The notes below the pieces were generated by a model that saw only the letters and a list, made by a program, of their open reading frames with translations, had not been told where the DNA came from and ran no database searches. The position numbers and the translations under genes were made by a program. A DNA stretch of 35,590 nt, from assembly GCA_026386845.1 (NCBI GenBank), contig JAPLMW010000008.1, positions 1 to 35,590 on the forward strand. The letters run 5' to 3'. This document shows, in pieces, positions 1 to 31,471 of the stretch. The DNA is from Phycisphaerae bacterium. Lineage in GTDB: Bacteria > Planctomycetota > Phycisphaerae > Sedimentisphaerales > UBA12454. Position 1 is the stretch's first letter; each line of letters starts with the position of its first letter.

Positions 1-327
1 CGTCCCGAAACGTTTCGAAACAGGTTTCTACATATTTAGTTATTCTTTTGTTTTCTCGCCTTGCCAAACACCGAATAACAGGTTTTCGGCTCAGCCAGTT
101 CGTATCTTTTCACGCTGCTCGGACGAACAACCTTGCAGAGTTATCCCGCTAATCGGCGTCCTGCGAAATCGGCGGGAACAATCCCGCAGAACGGGCCGCT
201 TTAATTAAGCAGCCATTGCTAATTGGTAGTTGCCAATTAAATTTGTGTCGGATGATTAGCCAGGCCAACCGACGTCCTGGATATGCCGCCTGCTTCTCTA
301 CCCGTCCGGTCGAAGCCTTTCGCCCCC
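1..327 (-). ncRNA. ssrA: tmRNA (SsrA), 3' end beyond the window
   Basis: Read on the minus strand, the RNA starts near 327 with GGGGGCGAAAGGCUUCGAC, the expected tmRNA 5' end. It runs to position 1 with CUAAAUAUGUAG and then UUUCGGGACG, which match the conserved segments just before the T-arm of known tmRNAs. The T-loop and CCA end lie outside the window. An internal tag reading frame ends at UAA (205-207) and reads ...NLIGNYQLAMAA, a small-apolar degradation-tag ending. An in-frame UAA at 256-258 limits the tag to at most 16 residues. tmRNA with SmpB rescues stalled ribosomes and marks the incomplete protein for proteolysis. The exact resume codon is not obvious. The open frame over this region is not a protein gene. 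Confidence 0.88.
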
Positions 328-481: not shown

Positions 482-680
482 GCGGGTTTCCCCTGCAGTG
501 TTCGACAGGAAGGTTCATATTTGAAGAACCGATGCCCATATTTAGGGAAGTCGGAACCTGACGGCTCGAAAATGCCTGCTCGACAGGACTTTTGGACGCT
601 TGAAGCTGACTACCCACCTTGAAATACTGGGTTCTTTAAATAGCCTACCATCGGCACAGGTGGAGGTTACCGGCATTTAA
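482..680 (+). ncRNA. ssrS: 6S RNA (RNA polymerase regulator)
   Basis: This is a stretch of about 200 nt with its own promoter and terminator and no plausible reading frame. Its ends pair imperfectly (GGGTTTCCCCTGCAGTG near 484 with CACAGGTGGAGGTTACC near 655-671), giving the long closing stem of 6S RNA. Inside are family-like segments: TGTTCG near 499, TGCTCGACAGG near 573, and CACCTTGAAATACTGGGTTC near 616, which resembles the conserved CACCTTGAACCAAGGGTTC block. 6S RNA mimics an open promoter, binds the housekeeping sigma-70 holoenzyme and tunes transcription in stationary phase. The call rests on layout and remembered motifs; a covariance-model search would settle it. Confidence 0.75.
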
Positions 681-19892: not shown

Positions 19893-20220
19893 AACTTGCT
19901 GTAAATCAAAGACTTACAACTAACAAGTAAATTCTATTTTTTGATTTTATTACAACAGTTACTACATTATTATAGCTAAATTTTTTATTTATCAAAGATA
20001 GAAATGTCAGGAAAGCCGGACCAGTATCATCCTGTCAAGGTTATTCAATTTCGGCTTTTTGATTTTTCTTTTCAGGATAACCACCTGTTCGAATTTTTTC
20101 ATAGGACAAGCATTATTGTCCATTGCCAACACAGTAATTATAATATGCCTGTATTTACTGTCGCATAAAAAACGCATTTTTTCAAGAGAATTGGGCTAAT
20201 CTGCCGATTACAACTAAAGC
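19893..20220. other. AT-rich intergenic region
   Basis: No gene seen. AAAGCCG (20012-20018) and CGGCTTT (20052-20058) followed by T-rich sequence could be a long-loop terminator. TATAAT on the minus strand (about 19968-19975) might contribute to tRNA transcription, but the -35 box is weak. Confidence 0.4.
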
Positions 20221-20249
20221 TTTACCACCTTCAGTTATTATGCTATAAG
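20221..20249 (+). promoter_or_regulatory. Promoter of structured RNA E1
   Basis: TTTACC (20221-20226), 17-nt spacer, extended -10 TGCTATAAG with TATAAG at 20244-20249. Transcription would start near 20256, just before the outer stem of E1. Confidence 0.5.
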
Positions 20250-20260
20250 TGCAAAAAAAT

Positions 20261-20343
20261 GGAGCGTCAACAATTGTCTCGTTCTGTGGTACCCATTGGC
20301 GTGGGAGTCTTTGAGCGAGAAACTAGTTTGACGCTCCTTTTTT
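20261..20343 (+). ncRNA. Structured small RNA E1 (new repeat family)
   Basis: An outer stem GGAGCGTCAA (20261-20270) with TTGACGCTCC (20328-20337) is followed by a T-run, so the molecule ends in its own terminator. An inner 8-bp stem TCTCGTTC (20277-20284) with GAGCGAGA (20313-20320) encloses a 28-nt core (20285-20312) beginning TGTGGTACCC, with a CCCA/TGGG mini-hairpin. The core is identical in E1 and E3 while the stems differ but still pair. With its own promoter this looks like a free-standing RNA of about 85 nt. I recognise no known riboswitch or sRNA family. Confidence 0.7.
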
Positions 20344-20609
20344 ATTAAAGACGTATTTTCTACTAAAGGCAGCCTGCAGTTGCTATTCCCCTTACCCTGT
20401 ATGTGTCTTTTCCCCGCATTATTGATGATGAAACCGGTTATTTTCCGAAAAGGCATTAACTGGGTTTCAAGCCTACACTACAACTTTCGGACAATTTGCG
20501 GCAATTTGAACAGTATAATTTTAAGAATCGGACAAATTTTTCTTGAAACTCGATTTTTATCTTACAAACCGTTTAAGTTAAACAAAAAAACCTCGAGAAT
20601 GGGATACAA

Positions 20610-20694
20610 GGAGTGTGAATCATAGTTCTCGTTTCGTGGTACCCATTGGCGTGGGAGTCTTTGAGCGAGAAACTGGTTTGACGCTCCTTTTTTT
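20610..20694 (+). ncRNA. Structured small RNA E2
   Basis: The core sequence matches E1 from GTGGTACCC onward. The inner stem TTCTCGTTT/GAGCGAGAA keeps pairing through a C-to-U change (C-G to U-G). The outer stem GGAGTGTGAA (20610-20619) with TTGACGCTCC (20678-20687) pairs through G-U with one mismatch, then a T-run. Promoter boxes are unclear. It lies about 350 nt after E1. Confidence 0.65.
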
Positions 20695-20703
20695 ATTGAT
20701 TCC

Positions 20704-20864
20704 CTAAGAGCGTTTTTTCCTTAATTCCTCAATATACTTTGCCGCGGCATCTTTACCGCCTAATCCAAACGCAAGAGCCTTCAATTGCACATCAATTTTA
20801 AAAACCCCATTACAAATCCCGCCCAATCCTCGGCTCGCCAGGCAGCTATCTTTTTTCTACCCAT
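20704..20864 (-). pseudogene. Possible frameshifted small gene
   Basis: From an ATG (complement of 20862-20864) with AAAGG upstream the frame reads MGRKKIAAWRAEDWAGF. The rest of a plausible protein, IDVQLKALAFGLGGKDAAAKY and then IEELRKKRS, continues in another frame to a stop at 20704. One indel near 20815 would join them. No family is recognised. It could equally be chance, so it is offered with low confidence. Confidence 0.25.
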
Positions 20865-20900
20865 AAGAAAACCTTTTTAAGTTTTTTGGATATCGGTTCT

Positions 20901-21386
20901 TCAAACTTTCCGCAAAACACATAAATTACCATTACTAAACGCTGTTACATTCAGCATATTTGAGACTGCCATACTTTTCGTCCTTTCAGATTGGCTGATG
21001 GGAACTATCGCGCCCTCAACGTGAATTATATCGCCTCTGCCATTGAAAACGGGCTCCCCTTTATCCATAACGCATCGCAGCGAGCCGTCTTTATGGATGA
21101 TGCGATATTCAACTTTAAAAGAAACCCCCCAATTTTTACATTCAGCATAAGCGGCAAAAACCTTCTGTCGGTCATCAGGATGAATTAGATTTACCCAAAG
21201 CTCTCTATCAGTTAATATCTCATCGGCGTCATATCCGCTTAATTCCTTAATTTTCTTCGAGAAACAAATAATCTCGGGCCGTTCTGAGGATAAAGTTAAA
21301 TAAGGAATTTCACGGATGGTTTCGACAAATTGGTTGAGCTCCTCATATAACCGTTTTAAAACATATTGAATTTTCACCTCTTGCAT
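20901..21386 (-). CDS. Stand-alone PAS-domain protein
   Basis: A 161-aa protein with one PAS_3-type sensor domain (about residues 25-135). ELSGYDADEILTDRELWVNLIHPDDRQKV and VEYRIIHKDGSLRCVMDKGEPVFNGRGDI are the typical PAS and PAC parts. There is no kinase, cyclase or DNA-binding output. The last ~25 residues (NVTAFSNGNLCVLRKV) match nothing I know. GAGGTG lies 7 nt before the ATG, so it is probably expressed. It could be a separate sensor subunit or the remnant of a longer hybrid kinase. It lies near a PAS-containing histidine kinase on the same strand, separated by about 420 bp. Confidence 0.75.
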   Translation of the reverse strand: MQEVKIQYVLKRLYEELNQFVETIREIPYLTLSSERPEIICFSKKIKELSGYDADEILTDRELWVNLIHPDDRQKVFAAYAECKNWGVSFKVEYRIIHKDGSLRCVMDKGEPVFNGRGDIIHVEGAIVPISQSERTKSMAVSNMLNVTAFSNGNLCVLRKV

Positions 21387-21809
21387 CTGGCCACACCTCT
21401 AAATGTGTTAACAGTTTTAAGTTTTTTCATTACTATCGGCCGAAATCACATTTAAGCAGTTAAATAAATTTTAAGAGTAAATAACCACTTTTGTTAAATT
21501 TGTATTCGGCATCATCAAAACATTTCTTGAAAGCTTTTAGCTCTTTAATATAAGCCTAAGGAGTGTAAAAAATCCAAGCCTAACAGTTGTTTAAAATAAG
21601 TTTACGCGGATGAGACAATTTCTGCCGGAAGAATTATGACTTGATAAAGAGAAGTTTTTGGCCTATTTGACGCTGATATTGGCGATTGAGCAAGCTTAAA
21701 GAAAACTATCCAGAGGAACTGGTTTGCACTAACCAATGGTTAAAATAGCACTCCATCCGGGAAGGGATACTGCCAAAAGCTAATCTGCCAATTCTAAATA
21801 AAATTTTGC
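21387..21809. other. AT-rich intergenic region
   Basis: I see no gene, strong promoter or terminator that can be assigned with confidence. Confidence 0.4.
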
Positions 21810-22457
21810 TTAAATTTTAGTCAGCCCTTCGCGAACAGCAAATTTAGTAAGGTCTGCGAGGTTATTAACTGCGGCCTTTTCCATAATGTGCCTGCGGATT
21901 GCCTCAACGGTTTTGACACTCAAGCCTACTTCTGCAGCGATTTGCTTTGCGGATTCGCCCCCTGTCAAAAGTCGAAGGACCTGGCTTTCTCTTAGTGTAA
22001 ACATTACACGATCGCAGTCAACAAATTGAAAACCATCTTTTGCAATACCGTTCAGAACTATGCTCGCAACTTGAGGACTCAAATATGATTGGCCGGCAGC
22101 CAGAGTTTTAATGGCATTGATTAAATCTTCAAACGCACACTCTTTGAGCATGTACCCTGATACGCCTGCCCTGACCATATCAAGTACAAATTCTCTTTTT
22201 GCATGCACAGACAGTGCCAGGACCTTAACTTCCGGCAGTTCGCTTTTAATTTGACGTGTCGCTTCAATACCATCCAGGCCAGGCATAGACACATCCATAA
22301 TAACCACATCCGGCCTTAATTTTCGGGTCATTTCCACCGCCGCCAGACCATTATCAGCCTCGCCAACCACTTGTATATCAGCATGTTCTTTAATCAAAGA
22401 GATGATTCCCTCTCTCAGGATTTCATGATCATCTGCTATCAAAATTTTTGTCACCAT
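21810..22457 (-). CDS. NarL/LuxR-family response regulator
   Basis: A 215-aa two-domain regulator. The receiver domain (1-120) has the acidic pair Asp9/Asp10, phospho-acceptor Asp55 in VVIMDVSMPG, a signalling serine in ALSVH and Lys105 in GYMLKE. The LuxR-type HTH (about 150-210) reads LRESQVLRLLTGGESAKQIAAEVGLSVKTVEAIRRHIMEK. GGGAGAA lies just before the ATG. It starts 13 nt after the histidine kinase stop, so the two form an operon and a likely two-component pair. Targets are not visible; the adjacent secretion operon and structured RNAs are only candidates by proximity. Confidence 0.93.
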   Translation of the reverse strand: MVTKILIADDHEILREGIISLIKEHADIQVVGEADNGLAAVEMTRKLRPDVVIMDVSMPGLDGIEATRQIKSELPEVKVLALSVHAKREFVLDMVRAGVSGYMLKECAFEDLINAIKTLAAGQSYLSPQVASIVLNGIAKDGFQFVDCDRVMFTLRESQVLRLLTGGESAKQIAAEVGLSVKTVEAIRRHIMEKAAVNNLADLTKFAVREGLTKI

Positions 22458-22470
22458 ATTTTCTCCCTGG

Positions 22471-24858
22471 TCAATGAGTTTTCTCAGATTTTATCGGTGC
22501 TACCAGCGTAACTCGTGTCCCGTGACTCGGCTTTGAATCAATCTCAAGGCTGCCGCCGAGGCAGTTTAACCTCTCGCGGATACTAAAAAGTCCAAAACCT
22601 CTCGCTTTATTTGAAGCAACATTCTCTATGGGATATACAAATCCGATTCCATCGTCTAATACGTTAATGCGTATCTTGTTTTTCTCTTTGTGAATAGAAA
22701 CTTTCACCTGTTGGGCTTTAGCATGCTTAATAATGTTAATAAGCAGCTCCCGCACTGCCCGGTATAAAAGAGCACCAACATCTTCATCCAAAGGCTTAAG
22801 CTGAGCGTCATCTTCAAACTCAGTTTTAATTCCGTACTTTTGCCGAACTTCTTCATCGAGCCATTCCCGGATTGCAGCTTCAAGCCCCAGTTCATGTAAG
22901 GCGGGAGAGGCCAAATCGGACGTCAAAGACCGCACATCATTAATTATCCGGTCGAGATATTTATAAATTTCATCCAGCGGCTCAATCAGATTTGCCGGCA
23001 AATCTGTCTCACGCAAATGGCCTAAATTAATTTTGAACAGTATCAGATTTTGCGCAATCCGGTCGTGCAATTCAGTTGCAATATGTTTGCACTGGCGTTC
23101 TTCGATTAATGACATTTCCGAAGCAAGGTCCCGAAGTTGTTTCTGATAAGCCAGCACTTTATTTTGAGCCTGTCTTTGTGCGGTGATGTCCCAGAAAACG
23201 CCTAATATTCCTGTAACATTACCTTCCTTGTCTCTGACAGGTGTTTTAGCAGCATGGATAATTAATTCCAGACCATTCTGAATATACTTCTTATTAACAT
23301 ATTCTGTTTTGCCGGATTTCATAATTCTTATGTCGTCAGCTCTGTATTTTTCAGCTAATTCTTTGGGGTGGAAGTCGTAATCTGTTTTTCCGGCAATTTC
23401 CTCGGCCTTAATTTTCAAATCCGCGGCATAATTTTCATTACAGGATATATAAACTGAGTCCTTATCTTTAAGGAAAATCTTCTCAGGAAGGTTTTCCAAA
23501 AGCGTTCTATATTTCTTCTCGCTTGCTCGCAGTACTTCTTCAGCCTTCTTGCGCTCGGTGATATCCTTTACTGTAGCGTATGCAATAACATTGCCCGCCC
23601 TGTCCATTATTGCAGAAGGGCTGACAATCACGGGGAAACGTTCTCCGTTCTTTCTCATAAAGGTAAATTCAAAATCATTAAAATTGCTCTCTGTAGTTTT
23701 ACTATATGATTCTTCTATCTTCTCAAGCTCTTCCGGAGGCCAGTAGGGATGGGGAAGTCCCCTGCCTATGAGTTCCTCTCTCGAAAAACCTGTCATCCTA
23801 CAAAAAGCGTCATTTACCATGATGTGGACACCATTGGCATCCAGCACTGAAAGGCCGTCCCTCATAGAGGTGATGAGGCTATCTGAGAACTTCTTTGCTT
23901 CTCCCAGTGCTTCTTCAGCCTTCTTGCGCTCGGTGATATCAGTTGCATATAAATTTACATATCCGCCTTCAATTACAGGAACCATATCGAATAAAAATAC
24001 TCTTCCGCTAATTTCCATTTCTGCTTGTTGTTTCTTCCCGGAATCATAGACATTCCTGATCATTCCAATCCATTTTTCAGGTATCTTATCTCCTATTTCT
24101 GTTTGGTCTTTCTTCAAGATTAGTCTTCTGCTGGCAGGGTTGGCATATAACAATACACCGTCTTTTGAAATCCTATATACCGGATTTGAATTTTCCTCCG
24201 GGAATCTGGCAAGGTTCTTTATCTCTTCTTCCGCCTTCTTGTGCTCAAGACTTTCAATACGTATCCATTTACCTTCGTCTCTAATAATAGCAAATTGGTG
24301 GTTACTAACTACATCGATAACTTCGGATGCCCTGCATTTATCCAGAGAATATGAACAGACGGCCAGCATACGATGTTTTCGGATAACGCTGTTCACGATA
24401 GCTTCATAATTGGCGAAGTTATCCCAGTCTTTCTTTTTAAGCCAAAAGGTGTTGCCCGTAAGGCGAAGGCCATCAAAACCTCGCTCTATAGCCTGTTTTT
24501 CCTTTTCCACCCACCCCGCCAGTACGTTATCAGCATCAAACTTGCCTGTTTTAGTGTACCATTGGCTGTAGTCAAGTATCTCTATCTGTCCTTTTTTAAT
24601 GTAATCATCAAAATCCTTTACTTTTGCTTTAAGCGCTGACTTTGCATCCTCTACTCCCAAAGGCTCGGCAGTAACCCACATGCAAAATTCGTTATTCTCT
24701 AAACCTGCTTTAAAATACGGCACCAGAATTTCAATCAAATCTTCCTTGGTTTTATAAAAAAGACAAGAATGCATACCCCAGGGAACATCACCTAAGATAT
24801 CAATTCCGGTTTTCCTAACAGACTTTTGTATCTCACTTTGCATCCTTGCACAAGCCAT
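22471..24858 (-). CDS. Cytoplasmic sensor histidine kinase: MEDS + 3 PAS + HisKA_3
   Basis: A 795-aa soluble kinase without membrane segments. The N-terminal ~190 residues match the MEDS (DcmR) sensory domain (HSCLFYKTKEDLIEILVPYFKAGLENNEFCMWVT). Three PAS domains follow (about 215-312, 322-436, 446-562), each ending in DITERKKAE or DITAQRQAQ. The HisKA_3 dimerisation helix has the phospho-accepting His598 in ATELHDRIAQN. The HATPase domain (about 690-790) has the N-box ELLINIIKHAK, LDDGIGF and GFGLFSIRERL. This is the NarX/DegS-type class that pairs with NarL regulators, such as the one encoded immediately downstream. The start is uncertain: 24858 or 24843, both with weak ribosome sites. Confidence 0.92.
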   Translation of the reverse strand: MACARMQSEIQKSVRKTGIDILGDVPWGMHSCLFYKTKEDLIEILVPYFKAGLENNEFCMWVTAEPLGVEDAKSALKAKVKDFDDYIKKGQIEILDYSQWYTKTGKFDADNVLAGWVEKEKQAIERGFDGLRLTGNTFWLKKKDWDNFANYEAIVNSVIRKHRMLAVCSYSLDKCRASEVIDVVSNHQFAIIRDEGKWIRIESLEHKKAEEEIKNLARFPEENSNPVYRISKDGVLLYANPASRRLILKKDQTEIGDKIPEKWIGMIRNVYDSGKKQQAEMEISGRVFLFDMVPVIEGGYVNLYATDITERKKAEEALGEAKKFSDSLITSMRDGLSVLDANGVHIMVNDAFCRMTGFSREELIGRGLPHPYWPPEELEKIEESYSKTTESNFNDFEFTFMRKNGERFPVIVSPSAIMDRAGNVIAYATVKDITERKKAEEVLRASEKKYRTLLENLPEKIFLKDKDSVYISCNENYAADLKIKAEEIAGKTDYDFHPKELAEKYRADDIRIMKSGKTEYVNKKYIQNGLELIIHAAKTPVRDKEGNVTGILGVFWDITAQRQAQNKVLAYQKQLRDLASEMSLIEERQCKHIATELHDRIAQNLILFKINLGHLRETDLPANLIEPLDEIYKYLDRIINDVRSLTSDLASPALHELGLEAAIREWLDEEVRQKYGIKTEFEDDAQLKPLDEDVGALLYRAVRELLINIIKHAKAQQVKVSIHKEKNKIRINVLDDGIGFVYPIENVASNKARGFGLFSIRERLNCLGGSLEIDSKPSHGTRVTLVAPIKSEKTH

Positions 24859-25610
24859 TGATAATAAAGATTGACCTGCTTGTATCCGTGAAGAGAGGCT
24901 TTATGTACCCATAACAGCCCAAGCATAGAATTCGAGAAAAATTGAAAGAAGTCCGCCTATGAATTTCCCCTATAAATGCCCGCCAGACTCTAAGTCGATA
25001 CCAACCTCTTTTAGGCACACAGGTAACTGCCAAATCAGCAATATACCTATTTCCGGCCATAACTATCCTCACGTTCTTGAAAATACGTTTCCCTGATGGG
25101 CCGAACCTGATACACATCCCACCCGGTTGCTTCAACAAAAATTAGAACATCTAATAAAACTATGTCAACAAAATTAAAATTTAAACTTCATTTATATTAC
25201 TATAGTGACAGGAAAACTCCTCATATAGAATGGTCTAAAGTGTCAACTGTATGGCACGCGGGAGAGCAATTATACGAGAAATCTTCAGATAAAAAATGAC
25301 CGCCGAATAATACGTTTAAGCCAAAAATGGGAGTTATAATTACCTGGCCTGTCCTCCGTAATCCCGACATCAATTTACCAGAAACCGAAATTAAGGGCGT
25401 TAATGACGATTTTATCGGCCGTTGCTTACCAATAATACGCCAAATGCAGCAATACAAAAATTCTCATTAATCAAAAGGGTGAATTTGTCGAAAAAACATT
25501 GGAAAAACTATCGGCAACTGTTTAAAGACAAAACGCCAAATGGGTTTCTTCGGGAATCCATAACCATGGGACAGTTGTATGTGCGATGCTGCATTACGTA
25601 TTGAGTAATA
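24859..25610. other. Intergenic region between the kinase gene and RNA E3
   Basis: I see no supportable gene in about 750 nt. Short open frames occur on both strands, without ribosome sites or family likeness. The base composition resembles non-coding DNA, and a promoter for the kinase must lie at its left end. Confidence 0.4.
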
Positions 25611-25691
25611 AGAGCGTCGGCATTATTCCGTCCTGTGGTACCCATTGGCGTGGGAGTCTTTGGACGGGTATTTGCTGACGCTCTTTTTTTT
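25611..25691 (+). ncRNA. Structured small RNA E3
   Basis: The outer stem AGAGCGTCGGCA (25611-25622) pairs with TGCTGACGCTCT (25673-25684) with one G-U, and runs into eight T. The inner stem is CCGTCC/GGACGG, unrelated in sequence to that of E1 and E2. It encloses exactly the same 28-nt core as E1 (TGTGGTACCC to GGGAGTCTTT). Complete replacement of both strands of the inner stem with the core unchanged is strong evidence for a selected RNA structure. Confidence 0.7.
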
Positions 25692-25788
25692 AGAGCCGGA
25701 TAATTAGATATTTGAAAGGTTTATTAAGCCAAAATAACTGAAGTATAAAAATTTAATATGAATTGCTGTTTCGAAGACTAACGCCAAT

Positions 25789-25806
25789 CAGGTCATTTGT
25801 GACCTG
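25789..25806. promoter_or_regulatory. CAGGTCA palindrome upstream of E4
   Basis: CAGGTCA and TGACCTG form a perfect 7-bp inverted repeat around TTTG. It could be an operator for the downstream RNA/secretion operon or a small hairpin. Confidence 0.35.
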
Positions 25807-25838
25807 TAACCACGGACACAGCAGTAATAGTATAAGCC

Positions 25839-25916
25839 GGAGCATTTGACTTGTGCCGTTCTGCCAAATCCATTGAGGCGGGTTTGAGAAACGCACCAGT
25901 CAAATGCTCCTTTTTT
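25839..25916 (+). ncRNA. Structured RNA E4: terminator-type leader before the secretion operon
   Basis: A perfect 13-bp outer stem GGAGCATTTGACT (25839-25851) with AGTCAAATGCTCC (25898-25910), followed by six T, encloses an inner stem (GTGC/GCAC) and a CAAATCC/GGGTTTG hairpin with loop ATTGAGGC. The nested layout equals that of E1-E3 and the loop shares ATTG, but the core is otherwise different, so kinship is uncertain. It ends 30 nt before the first gene of the secretion operon, so it could be an attenuator or an independent RNA. Confidence 0.55.
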
Positions 25917-25946: not shown

Positions 25947-27593
25947 ATGAGTTCAGAGTTAAAAGACAATTCGTTTGAAGATGCTTCCGTAAATGAAGTC
26001 AATACTCAGCAGGGCGTACTTACCAAAGATGCCCGGCATTTAGATGAGGACAAAGCACGAGCAATTGCCAAAAAGCACGGTGTTGAGTTTATCAGGTTGT
26101 CCGAGGTTAAACTGTTACCCCACATAGTCCGGCTTCTGCCTCAGGAGCTTGTTACTAAATACAATGTTATTGCTGTGAGGTATGAGGCCGATACGCTGTA
26201 TGTCGCAATGACCAATCCTGTAGATTTACCTACACTGGACCAGATAAATTTGGTAACCGGCTTTAATATAAAACCAGTGGTCGCTGCGGAAAAAGAGATT
26301 ATTAAAGCAATCAGCGAATATTATAGCGCCGAGCAGATGACGAAACAAGACCTGATTGACGCCAGATTTGATACAGAGCCGACTCAGGAAAGTGCCAGGA
26401 AGGTTGAACGGCTGATTGTCTCAAACGATGCAGGGCAGGTTGTTAACCTGGTTAATTCCATAATTAGAGACGCCATAGACTTACTGGCAAGCGATATCCA
26501 CTTCGAGCCGATGGGCAGCGAAATGTTTGTCCGGTTCAGGGTTGATGGAATTCTGCATGATTGCCTGACAATTCCTGCTGCGATGAAAAAAGAAGTTATC
26601 TCCCGCCTTAAAGTCCTCGCCAAGCTGGATATTACTGAAAAACGCAGGGCCCAGGATGGGCATATAAATCTTAATTACAAAGAAAATGACTACGACCTGC
26701 GTGTTTCCGTTATATCTACGATAAATGGCGAGAAAGCAGTTCTGCGAATTCTCGACAGAACAAGCATGTTAATCAATCTGACCACATTAGGCCTTGAGAG
26801 CATAGAAAAAACTCTGGTCGAAAGTGTTATCGCCAGACCATATGGAATGATTCTTATTACGGGACCAACGGGCAGCGGAAAGACTACGACCTTGTATGCT
26901 ATGCTCCGCAGTCTCGATTCAATTGAGCGAAATATTATAACTATCGAAAATCCAGTGGAGTATCAACTGAATAGAATCAACCAGATACAAATTGACCCTC
27001 CCAGCGGCGAGACTTTTGCAAGTGCACTGCGAACAATATTCAGACAGGACCCGGATATAATAATGATTGGCGAAATAAGGGACCTGGAAACCGCTGAAAT
27101 CGCTGTGCAGGCTGCCCTGACGGGGCATTTGGTCCTGAGCACATTACATACAAACGATGCTGTAACAGCCATCACCAGATTAAGAGAGCTTGGCATACCT
27201 TCGTTTCTAATATCGTCATGTGTTGTAATGGCAGAAGCGCAAAGATTAGTCAGGAAGATTTGCCCCGAATGCAAAGAGCCTTATCAGCCTGACCCAAAAA
27301 CACTGAAACTGCTGGGAATTGATGAGTCTCCTGCAGGAGGCTTTGTTCACGGCAAAGGCTGCAAATATTGTTATAACACGGGTTTTCACGGCAGAGAAGG
27401 TGTTTTCGAGATGCTCAAAATCGATACAGATATTCAAAACGCGATATTAGCAGAAAAGAACGCTCTGGAAATAAAGAAAATGGCCGTGGAAAAGGGGATG
27501 AAGACACTGCTGGATTCGGCATTATTGAAAGTGTCCCAGGGCAAGACCTGCGTTGAAGAAGTAAAACGGGTAATAGCACCGGAGAGATTTTAA
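25947..27593 (+). CDS. gspE: Secretion/pilus assembly ATPase, GspE/PilB family
   Basis: A 548-aa hexameric AAA-like ATPase that powers pseudopilus or pilus assembly from the cytoplasmic side. The N-terminal MshEN/GspE_N domain spans about 30-125. The catalytic domain has ASDIHFEP, Walker A GPTGSGKT (306-313), the Asp box (IENPVEYQL), Walker B IIMIGEIRD (about 371-379) and the His box LSTLHTNDA. A zinc-binding CxxC pair (Cys439/442 and Cys472/475) is typical of GspE and PilB. It is the first gene of a long operon; RNA E4 ends just upstream. The stop overlaps the gspF start as TAATG. Sequence alone does not separate T2SS from T4P use. Confidence 0.95.
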   Translation: MSSELKDNSFEDASVNEVNTQQGVLTKDARHLDEDKARAIAKKHGVEFIRLSEVKLLPHIVRLLPQELVTKYNVIAVRYEADTLYVAMTNPVDLPTLDQINLVTGFNIKPVVAAEKEIIKAISEYYSAEQMTKQDLIDARFDTEPTQESARKVERLIVSNDAGQVVNLVNSIIRDAIDLLASDIHFEPMGSEMFVRFRVDGILHDCLTIPAAMKKEVISRLKVLAKLDITEKRRAQDGHINLNYKENDYDLRVSVISTINGEKAVLRILDRTSMLINLTTLGLESIEKTLVESVIARPYGMILITGPTGSGKTTTLYAMLRSLDSIERNIITIENPVEYQLNRINQIQIDPPSGETFASALRTIFRQDPDIIMIGEIRDLETAEIAVQAALTGHLVLSTLHTNDAVTAITRLRELGIPSFLISSCVVMAEAQRLVRKICPECKEPYQPDPKTLKLLGIDESPAGGFVHGKGCKYCYNTGFHGREGVFEMLKIDTDIQNAILAEKNALEIKKMAVEKGMKTLLDSALLKVSQGKTCVEEVKRVIAPERF

Positions 27594-28798
27594 TGACTCA
27601 GTTTCTATACACAGCTCGGGCAATTGATAATAACGAGGCTTTCGGAAGCACTTGTTACGCCAACAATGAAGTCGAGATTCGCTCGGAACTTAAGCGAATG
27701 GGATATACAGTGGATACTGTCAAGCTGCAAAAAATAAGCCAGGTATTCGGCCGGCGTAAAAGAGTAAAGCTGGTTGACCTTGTAAATATGTGCCGGCGAT
27801 TTGCAGTAATGTATTCTGCGGGTCTTCCTCTATTGGACTGTTTGTCTTCACTGGTTCGGGAAAACGAAAGTAAAAATCTGTCGGATGCTCTAATGGATAT
27901 ACATACCAGAATCGAACGAGGCAGCAATATAGCGGATGCGTTTTCCAAACACCCCAGGATATTTTCTCCTTTATTTGTCAACCTGCTGCGTGCCGGCGAA
28001 GCATCCGGCAAGTTTGACTACGTACTTAGCCAGTTGGCGGGATTTATGGAAAAAGAGTACGACCTGAAAAGGAAAATCCGCCAGGCATTTGCGTATCCAA
28101 TCGTTGTTCTGGTTATGATTTTCCTGGTAGTTGCAGCGATAATGATTGTTGTTGTGCCTGTATTTTCCAAAGTTTATACGGAAATGGGCGTACCTCTGCC
28201 GGGACCGACAATCGCACTTATTGCCATCAGCAATAATGCCGGTTATATTTTCCCGTCAATAATTGTCTTAGCAGTCGGCCTGTGGTTTCTGCTTAGAAAG
28301 CTTCGGACAGTACCTGCGGCGAAAAACCGGCTGGACAGGTGGAAACTCTCAATGCCAATGGGAGGAGCAGTTTATCAAAAAGTCGTGCTGCTCAAGTTTA
28401 TACGCACTTTAAGTGTTATGATTACTGCGGGCATCCGGTTGTCCGATGCCATCAATATCTCCGAGAATGTTGCGGATAACGCTGTTATTTCTGAAGCAAC
28501 GAATATGATTCAACGCAACATAAAACGCGGGGGAACGATTACCGAGGTAATAAAATTACACGGATTCTTCCCCCAGACTATTATACATGCATTCTCTGCC
28601 GGCGAGGAAGCAGGCAAGCTGGATGAAATGTTAGGTAAATTTGCCAATGGAATTGAACAGGATGTTGATGACGGCATAAAAAGGCTGGTCACAAAAGTAG
28701 AGCCGCTGCTGGTGGTGGTTTTGAGCCTGGTCGTAGGCTTCATTTTATTGGCTATATATTTACCAATTTTCGATTTGATGAAAGTGTTACATAAGTAA
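27593..28798 (+). CDS. gspF: Inner-membrane platform protein, GspF/PilC family
   Basis: A 401-aa polytopic protein with two T2SSF repeats (about 70-190 and 270-395). The first carries FAVMYSAGLPLLDCL and FVNLLRAGEASGKFD, the second FIRTLSVMITAGIRLSDAI and IIHAFSAGEEAGKLDEML. Membrane segments lie at about 168-192, 218-238 and the C-terminus (LLVVVLSLVVGFILLAIYLPIF). It couples the cytoplasmic ATPase to pilin extraction from the membrane. Translation is coupled to gspE by a one-base overlap. Confidence 0.95.
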   Translation: MTQFLYTARAIDNNEAFGSTCYANNEVEIRSELKRMGYTVDTVKLQKISQVFGRRKRVKLVDLVNMCRRFAVMYSAGLPLLDCLSSLVRENESKNLSDALMDIHTRIERGSNIADAFSKHPRIFSPLFVNLLRAGEASGKFDYVLSQLAGFMEKEYDLKRKIRQAFAYPIVVLVMIFLVVAAIMIVVVPVFSKVYTEMGVPLPGPTIALIAISNNAGYIFPSIIVLAVGLWFLLRKLRTVPAAKNRLDRWKLSMPMGGAVYQKVVLLKFIRTLSVMITAGIRLSDAINISENVADNAVISEATNMIQRNIKRGGTITEVIKLHGFFPQTIIHAFSAGEEAGKLDEMLGKFANGIEQDVDDGIKRLVTKVEPLLVVVLSLVVGFILLAIYLPIFDLMKVLHK

Positions 28799-29656: not shown

Positions 29657-30045
29657 TGAAAAGAATAAAAACAAAAGGTTTTACCCTTGTTGAAGTTCTG
29701 GCCTCGATACTGATACTGTCAGGAACCATTGTTGTTCTTGTAACATATACCGCCGACACCATGCTCACGAGCCTGAAAACAGAGCAAATGGTAAAATCTA
29801 TCCTGCTGGCTGAAGGCGAGATGGAAAAGATAAAAAACACTCTTCGCAAATCGTTCGGAACTGACTTTGCCGTCTGGCCGGTCAGTCTTGGAAATAACTA
29901 CCTTGCCGCCAGGACATCAACAGATGTTAGTTTGACTTTGAAAATTATTGGAGTTTCAGTTGGTTATGACACCAATCAAAACGGTTCCCTTGGAACGGAT
30001 GAAATTATAGTTACCTTTATAACGCAGTATGCAAAAAGAACTTAA
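29656..30045 (+). CDS. gspI: Minor pseudopilin, GspI-like
   Basis: A 129-aa prepilin-like protein: leader MKRIKTKG, then FTLVEVLASILILSGTIVVLV with Glu5. The segment MVKSILLAEGEMEKI resembles the short GspI helix (LA..KMEEI type). It would form the pseudopilus tip with the J- and K-like subunits. Its end overlaps the start of the gspJ-like gene by 17 nt. Confidence 0.78.
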   Translation: MKRIKTKGFTLVEVLASILILSGTIVVLVTYTADTMLTSLKTEQMVKSILLAEGEMEKIKNTLRKSFGTDFAVWPVSLGNNYLAARTSTDVSLTLKIIGVSVGYDTNQNGSLGTDEIIVTFITQYAKRT

Positions 30046-31471
30046 AAAACACGTTGAATGCCGTCGGGCCTTTACGCTGGTCGAGTTGATACTGGTGACT
30101 GCTATAGTAGCTATCGTCGCAACCGCCTTAGTTGGGATGATATATAGCAACTACAAGAGCTGGAAGCTGGGTAGCGGCCGTTCAACTTTGCTGCAGGACG
30201 GCCGGGCGGTATTGGAGCAGATGACTCGCATTATTCGCCAGTCTAAAGGTTTCATCTCCGTCACCTCGCCAACCGACCAGGCCGGCCAGATAACATTTAC
30301 TGACGTTGACGGTGCGACTCAACAGTTCAGACTAAACACGTTAACCAGCGAAATTGAATTTGGACCGCCGGCTTCTTTAAGTGCGTTAATTGGTTCAGTA
30401 AGCAATCTTGTTTTTACCTGCTATGATGTGAATGCAAATAGTCTTGCTGACCCTGTTCGGGTTCGCAAAGTTAGGGGAGTAGGTATAACAGCGACGCTTA
30501 CTGACCCGGTCAGTTCTCTGCAATTTACATTGTCCGACAGGGTTTTCAGCCCGGAAGATTTCCAGAACGCATTAGTGATAAATGAAATTATGTATAACCC
30601 ATCGGGCAGCGGCAGCGATGCACCCAAAGAATGGGTCGAGCTTTATAACCTGAGCGATTCCACTATTGATGTAAACGGCTGGAAAATAAATAATGACACG
30701 CTGATAGCGCATCCTCAGTTTGGCAATGGCTCAACAACAATACCGGCAAATGGATACGCCGTGATAACCGCAGATACTACGGATGTCTATACTGAAACTG
30801 AATTAGTAAATAATGGCGGATTTGAAAACAGCGATATTAGCTTATGGATAATGAATCCCAGTTCCAGTTGGACAAGGACCAGTGGAGGTGCTCATGGAGG
30901 AACACGTAAATTGGAAAGCACGGTATCCGGTGCAACCTCGGTGTATCAGCAAATTACCGTTCCTTCAGGATACAACAGTTATTTATTTCTTTTCTGGGAA
31001 AAGACAACGGTTGTCGGGCAGACTCCAATAACAGCAACAATACGCGATACGAGCGGCAATATTCTTGCTACCGGCTACAGCGGACAGATGAATTCCACCT
31101 GGACCTGCCATACAATGAATGTTACCGCGTATGCCGGCCAAACTGTCAGAATATATTTCAACACAAACAAAACCGGAAGCGGCTCACTGTTTCTTGACGA
31201 TGTTTCCGTAGTTACTTCGTACGTGAATATAAATGCAATCAGGCTAGGCTGCAGCAATAGCCATATTGGAAGTGGACTCGGTAACAACGGCGACACTGTA
31301 ACTGTTACTAACGGCAGTTCAACAATTGACAGTGTTACTTATGTTGACAGTTGGGGCGGAGATGGCGATGGAAATAGTTTATCAAGAATAGACCCGCAGG
31401 GGCTTTCAAACGACCAAAGCAACTGGACGAGCGGGCCTCAGCATGGAACGCCCGGCTGGGCAAATTTTTAA
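30029..31471 (+). CDS. GspJ-like pseudopilin fused to a lamin-tail domain split by a CBM-like insert
   Basis: A 480-aa protein far longer than ordinary GspJ (~200 aa). The prepilin segment FTLVELILVTAIVAIVATALV has Glu5, but the residue before the cut is Ala, not the usual Gly. The GspJ-like body runs to about 178. A lamin-tail domain starts at about 181 (LVINEIMYNPSGSG, EWVELYNLSDSTIDVNGWKI). It is interrupted at about 257-398 by a jelly-roll, CBM-like segment (NNGGFENSDISLWIM, SLFLDDVSVV), and resumes to the end (GDTVTVTNGSSTIDSVTY, TPGWANF). The fusion would put a binding module at or near the pseudopilus tip. There is no clear Shine-Dalgarno; expression is probably coupled to the preceding gene. 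Confidence 0.85.
   Translation: MQKELKKHVECRRAFTLVELILVTAIVAIVATALVGMIYSNYKSWKLGSGRSTLLQDGRAVLEQMTRIIRQSKGFISVTSPTDQAGQITFTDVDGATQQFRLNTLTSEIEFGPPASLSALIGSVSNLVFTCYDVNANSLADPVRVRKVRGVGITATLTDPVSSLQFTLSDRVFSPEDFQNALVINEIMYNPSGSGSDAPKEWVELYNLSDSTIDVNGWKINNDTLIAHPQFGNGSTTIPANGYAVITADTTDVYTETELVNNGGFENSDISLWIMNPSSSWTRTSGGAHGGTRKLESTVSGATSVYQQITVPSGYNSYLFLFWEKTTVVGQTPITATIRDTSGNILATGYSGQMNSTWTCHTMNVTAYAGQTVRIYFNTNKTGSGSLFLDDVSVVTSYVNINAIRLGCSNSHIGSGLGNNGDTVTVTNGSSTIDSVTYVDSWGGDGDGNSLSRIDPQGLSNDQSNWTSGPQHGTPGWANF

Follow-up and report, generated by a model that had tools for sequence, protein, structure and literature searches.

The question raised by this locus is why hairpins with a nearly invariant core should recur, around stems of unrelated sequence, within one stretch of a bacterial genome. 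The stretch, referred to here as the window, comprises the 35,590 nt at positions 1 to 35,590 of contig JAPLMW010000008.1 of a Phycisphaerae bacterium (GCA_026386845.1), and the hairpins E1, E2 and E3 within it were taken by the initial annotation as evidence for selection on RNA structure. We find that they are the terminator halves of an RNA family of about 165 nt, the members of which lie in the 5' leaders of genes in Planctomycetota and, as judged from sequence comparison, probably attenuate transcription through a choice between two folds that exclude each other.

The features that had drawn attention to the three copies are all borne out. E1 (20261-20343, made up of an outer stem, an inner stem, the apical core and T6), E2 (20610-20693) and E3 (25611-25690), all on the forward strand, share the 28 nt core TGTGGTACCCATTGGCGTGGGAGTCTTT, which is identical in E1 and E3 and from which E2 deviates at the first two bases only. 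The inner stems are unrelated in sequence yet paired (TCTCGTTC/GAGCGAGA versus CCGTCC/GGACGG), and a comparison of E1 with E3 shows the outer stem changed on each side. Three mismatch-free occurrences of the core pattern lie in the window, and no further copies were found in the whole 2.4-Mb genome at up to three mismatches. A covariance model, R1, whose underlying alignment of E1, E2, E3 and one relative was fixed by N padding, recovered a diverged fourth copy that was not used in its construction (E4, 25758-25916, plus strand; E=1.8e-5), and all four copies found in a search of the host genome fall inside the window. The copies are closed by six to eight T on the plus strand. The copies do bracket a block of PAS/MEDS kinase and LuxR-type regulator genes, as had been noted, but this block lies on the opposite strand and is not the regulated unit.

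Reading the 200 nt 5' of the copies reveals a conserved upstream half, consisting of a stem, P1, formed around AAAACGCCAA and a hairpin, P2. It precedes E3 (25510-25605) and E4 (25758-25838); its counterpart is degenerate at E1 (20150-20260) and non-functional by pairing at E2 (20546-20609), and E1 and E2 are thus terminator-only relatives, while E3 and E4 form a tandem leader of a pilus operon. The relation between the two halves is evident in E3, where the apical loop TTGGCGT (25645-25651) is the exact complement of the upstream segment ACGCCAA (25533-25539). Among the copies the loop and its partner change together, as in CCGCCAA/TTGGCGG, CACCACA/TGTGGTG, CTACCACA/TGTGGTAG, ACGCCAGT/ACTGGCGT and CGACCAG/CTGGTCG. 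The flanks of the apical hairpin can likewise pair with upstream strands, S1 (25519-25529) with the 3' strand (S1', 25656-25666) and S2 (25563-25572) with the 5' strand (S2', 25630-25639), such that E3 can form the helices TGTTTAAAGAC/GTCTTTGGACG, ACGCCAA/TTGGCGT and ACCATGGGAC/GTCCTGTGGT. Because all three nest, we came to read the loop complementarity not as a pseudoknot but as part of a nested alternative fold, a three-way junction (state A) that is incompatible with the terminator fold (state T), and the core is invariant because its bases serve both folds. The corresponding segments of E4 are S1 TTCGAAGACT (25770-25779), ACGCCAAT (25781-25788), P2, S2 ACCACGGA (25809-25816) and a linker, GTATAAG (25830-25836), which can pair with CTTGTGC (25850-25856) in the terminator half (25839-25916) to give an antiterminator hairpin, P3.

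Both folds are supported by covariation in an alignment (A9) of 75 copies. For state A, 85.0% of cells are paired and 22 of the 24 pairs show double changes; the score is 0.413 compared with 0.173 for shuffled sequences, the best slid control reaches 47.4% paired, and none of 500 shuffles attains any of these measures, although the state-A string was derived from the tested sequences and its advantage over slid versions is therefore partly built in. For state T the values are 96.6% of cells paired, double changes in 19 of 22 pairs, a score of 0.437 against 0.285, and 57.2% paired in the best slid control. A register-free test, in which partners are shuffled among 71 distinct copies, is free of the derivation bias but ignores the relatedness of the copies; it gave mean helix scores of 19.6 versus 11.6 for S1, 18.5 versus 15.6 for the loop and 17.6 versus 12.5 for S2, with 0/5000 shuffles reaching the observed value for each of the three helices. 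When the RNA is cut before the 3' arm of the terminator, the three state-A helices are predicted together in 56 of 72 copies. A T-tract follows the outer stem in nearly all copies, and AAA and CCC/GGG are conserved unpaired. The covariation thus indicates that an antiterminator fold exclusive of the terminator is under selection.

The family extends well beyond the window. R1 recovers held-out copies in other genomes (G001a, 2e-14; G016a, 9e-9; G013a, 6e-7), and relatives carry the identical core within hairpins whose stems differ but are paired, a recurrence that exceeds chance; the compensatory changes foreseen by the initial annotation are thus present in related genomes, and its case for selection on structure is strongly confirmed in dozens of them. 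With a full-length model, R2, which spans the upstream and terminator parts, the RNA was found (E<=1e-4) in 35 of 397 genomes searched within the class and, in a sample of the phylum, in 27 of 392, many matches lying outside the model seed with E-values down to 1e-20; another genome set gave 16 of 161. A pattern scan of named genomes yielded 67 contigs, 57 of them confirmed by model, and these are almost all from Planctomycetota (Pirellulales, Phycisphaerae, Planctomycetaceae and an anammox bin), the exceptions being one Verrucomicrobiales bin (L102) and one unclassified bin (L153). Pattern matches in alphaproteobacteria and other non-planctomycetes were mostly not confirmed. No Rfam 15 covariance model matches at its gathering score, in agreement with the initial annotation, and at a permissive E<=10 only two chance-level matches appear. 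Separately, a locus in a Phycisphaerales bin (L025, 2021-2074, minus strand) gives a sub-threshold Rfam match (E 6e-9) to the Plastid-psbl-rps4 3'UTR family.

The position of the copies is equally informative. At 49 of 53 loci the gene that follows has the same orientation as the copy (about 3e-11 under random strands in a simple binomial), compared with 31 of 49 for the upstream neighbour, with neighbours called crudely as the longest open reading frame (ORF), and this argues that the copies are leader attenuators. A GC-rich hairpin followed by a U-tract and placed upstream of a sense gene is what marks an attenuator based on an intrinsic terminator, and this is the arrangement found. Within the order to which the source bacterium belongs, Sedimentisphaerales, tandem or single copies lie before cheA (with Hpt and H-kinase dimerisation domains) in four genomes, before cheW in three (one with an MCP), before fliG in one and before pilB in the window. 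The pilB/gspE-type ATPase gene (T2SSE and MshEN domains; 25947-27593, plus strand) begins 31 nt after E4 and opens the type IV pilus operon that follows E3/E4.

These neighbours bear directly on the suggestion that the elements are free-standing small RNAs with a conserved apical loop. E1, E2, G001a and G013a are indeed terminator-only, and E1 and E2 have no adjacent sense gene, so that an sRNA-like role is possible for these two window copies; for the family as a whole it does not fit, given the sense orientation of the downstream genes and the fact that the loop is a strand of an alternative intramolecular helix, and we consider it unlikely. The other option offered by the initial annotation, a ligand-binding terminator, came close, in that a terminator responding to something is a leader attenuator, but the upstream half had been missed.

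Copies of a second, island-like type (loop TTGGCGG) precede diverse genes, including those for GYF_2 proteins, dynamin-like GTPases, sigma-70 region 2 proteins, an Mrr-type nuclease and others, and some adjoin terminase, integrase, serine recombinase or transposase genes. It might be supposed from this, and from identical copies in one genome (G739), that the element is a mobile-element end or a DNA-level hairpin such as a transposon terminus, bridge RNA or attC-like site. This we regard as very improbable, since the T-tract is always on the same strand, the alternative folds covary, the leader position is conserved, viral contigs searched with two patterns of the RNA gave no match, and there is no constant transposase partner. 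A match of the core to a known transposon end, which the initial annotation had named as a finding that would tell against it, was likewise not borne out. The bridge RNA of IS110 elements has two hairpins with internal loops and in that respect resembles the family. Here, however, the RNA ends in a terminator, and we rejected the bridge RNA topology on the grounds that one loop pairs with the other and that a constant transposase is missing; no IS110 transposase was found beside the copies examined.

Several observations on the island-type copies stand on their own. At five loci (L046, L053, L057, L067 and L101) the leaders lie beside phage-terminase-like genes, seen among the upstream ORFs, some of them near large serine recombinases; the cargo genes vary, and several cargo proteins match PADLOC candidate defence families, although PADLOC matches downstream of copies are not clearly above the upstream control. 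In two genomes (G739, loci L071/L094; G758, loci L073/L096) identical or nearly identical copies lie far apart on one chromosome, which suggests that the leader moves with its neighbourhood.

We infer that the two folds act in the cell as a switch between termination and antitermination. In state T the upstream half would fold on itself (P1 and P2), leaving the downstream half to form an intrinsic terminator at which transcription would stop. In state A, S1, ACGCCAA and S2 would pair with the 3' strand, the loop and the 5' strand of the would-be terminator, and hairpin P3 would sequester the terminator 5' arm, so that transcription could run into the gene. The balance would be set by an effector, which might be a metabolite such as a second messenger, a protein, or a partner RNA; riboswitch control by a small molecule, a leader responsive to a protein and control of one RNA by another are all possible modes. 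Some findings weigh against such an attenuator. A joint fold containing both pairings, as in kissing hairpins, is possible and compatible with the covariation; the predicted energies do not give a balanced switch in every copy, state A being the full-length optimum for E3 and for most island-type copies, and state T that for E4 and other second copies; the genes behind island-type copies are so diverse that they point to no single ligand; and E1 and E2 lack both a sense gene behind them and a working upstream half.

In its strictest form the attenuator would be a riboswitch, in which a small molecule, such as a cyclic dinucleotide, is bound either by the upstream half (P1/P2 with AAAACGCCAA) or by the AAA/GGG internal loop at the state-A junction and thereby sets motility expression. 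The leader position, the tandem copies and the motility genes (those for PilB with MshEN, CheA, CheW, MCP and FliG) favour this, as do the conserved unpaired bases and a style of regulon resembling that of cyclic di-GMP (c-di-GMP) riboswitches (PMC9262584, PMC6366702). No riboswitch model matches, however; few unpaired bases beyond the paired strands are conserved, the genes behind island-type copies are unrelated, and we hold the riboswitch to be a serious but not a favoured candidate. The upstream half had seemed to resemble the GEMM-I riboswitch, but the Rfam search does not support this lead.

The tandem copies raise the prospect of a different effector. Eight loci, E3/E4 among them, carry a first (A) and a second (B) copy, and in an exact permutation over these eight pairs the A upstream half matches the A terminator (p=2/40320). 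The B upstream half also matches the A terminator from its genome (p=6/40320), whereas it shows no such match to the B terminator (p=0.12). The terminators of E1 and E2 score 61 and 60 with the upstream halves of E3 and E4, the top two of 75, and only 33 and 28 with their own flanks; similarly, a terminator-only copy before cheW (G049c) matches both upstream halves of an A/B pair on another contig (G049a/b). Free B copies are predicted to form an extended P1 and the terminator, and when the upstream half is blocked P3 is predicted to capture the terminator base, as in the folding of E4.

It is possible, as a candidate of about the same standing as the riboswitch, that the RNAs are wired to one another, the terminator half of the first copy, or E1 or E2, pairing with the upstream half of the second copy (E4), either in trans or within one transcript; P1 would be opened, the linker (GCACAAG; GUAUAAG in E4) freed and P3 formed, turning the operon on. 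The predicted duplexes are weak, however: E1 and E2 with the E4 leader give ddG values of 0.0 and -1.9 kcal/mol, which several foreign controls equal or better, and strong trans action of E1/E2 is unsupported by these energies. The likeness of the A and B upstream halves might also be maintained through gene conversion or other concerted evolution of the duplicates; of the positions changed between them 18 stay paired and 27 are lost. B-specific sequence common to the B copies of families f1 and f7 suggests that the duplication is old. G001a has no partner within its own genome, and a short-motif search for its partners was non-specific. The fuller proposal, that control lies in RNA only, one transcript (E1 and E2 included) switching termination in the cross-matched sister leader of another motility operon, is more tentative still. 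As a further variant of the tandem arrangement, one locus (L020, in G145; 610-1700) carries four consecutive copies that amount to two A/B pairs, the first of which is degenerate.

Other features of the window may be noted briefly. E1 is also terminator-like on the minus strand (20255-20337), where it is preceded by an A-run and matched by R1 at 45 bits, suggesting that it may terminate in both directions. The pilus operon continues with pilC/gspF (T2SSF; 27593-28798, plus strand) as its second gene and includes a gene for a pilin-like protein (30029-31471, plus strand) that has a lamin-tail domain and, at its N terminus, a methylation motif. A tmRNA (1-327, minus strand, cut at the window start) and a 6S RNA (487-670, plus strand) adjoin.

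Planctomycetes have been little studied at the RNA level, and they go unmentioned in the searched text of two recent surveys of structured RNAs from bacteria (PMC8632094, PMC11109978). A candidate leader class that spans the phylum and is linked to pili, flagella and chemotaxis, with an island form tied to accessory genes that include candidate defence genes, would offer a direct handle on planctomycete motility regulation, and since its folds are defined to single bases the claims are open to testing with simple mutants and by transcription in vitro. The family may have been glimpsed previously as Rhodopirellula-1, which a 2010 survey (Weinberg et al., PMC2864571) lists as a probably cis-regulatory element of ambiguous RNA status from Proteobacteria and Planctomycetes, with no Rfam accession; the occurrence listed in Proteobacteria has no counterpart among our model-confirmed matches.

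Riboswitch-type attenuators such as the c-di-GMP class I riboswitch (RF01051) share with these RNAs the 5' leader position, two exclusive folds, an intrinsic terminator, tandem copies and motility genes, but the present family matches no Rfam sequence or model, differs in architecture and has no assigned ligand. In the pT181 attenuator and the synthetic small transcription activating RNAs (STARs), as in the wiring proposed here, the formation of an intrinsic terminator depends on an RNA partner; the candidate partners in our case are leader halves homologous to one another, which lie in tandem or at other places on the chromosome, and their action in trans is a proposal. SreA, a terminated riboswitch of Listeria, likewise illustrates how a terminated leader RNA may act on the leader of another mRNA, although SreA acts on an unrelated mRNA whereas the matched strands here sit in sister copies. 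The kind of system is thus that of an attenuator leader, and the new element is the pairing of strands across tandem copies; if this cross-matching is functional, these would be natural leader RNAs that control each other's terminators, an arrangement so far known mainly as a design of synthetic biology.
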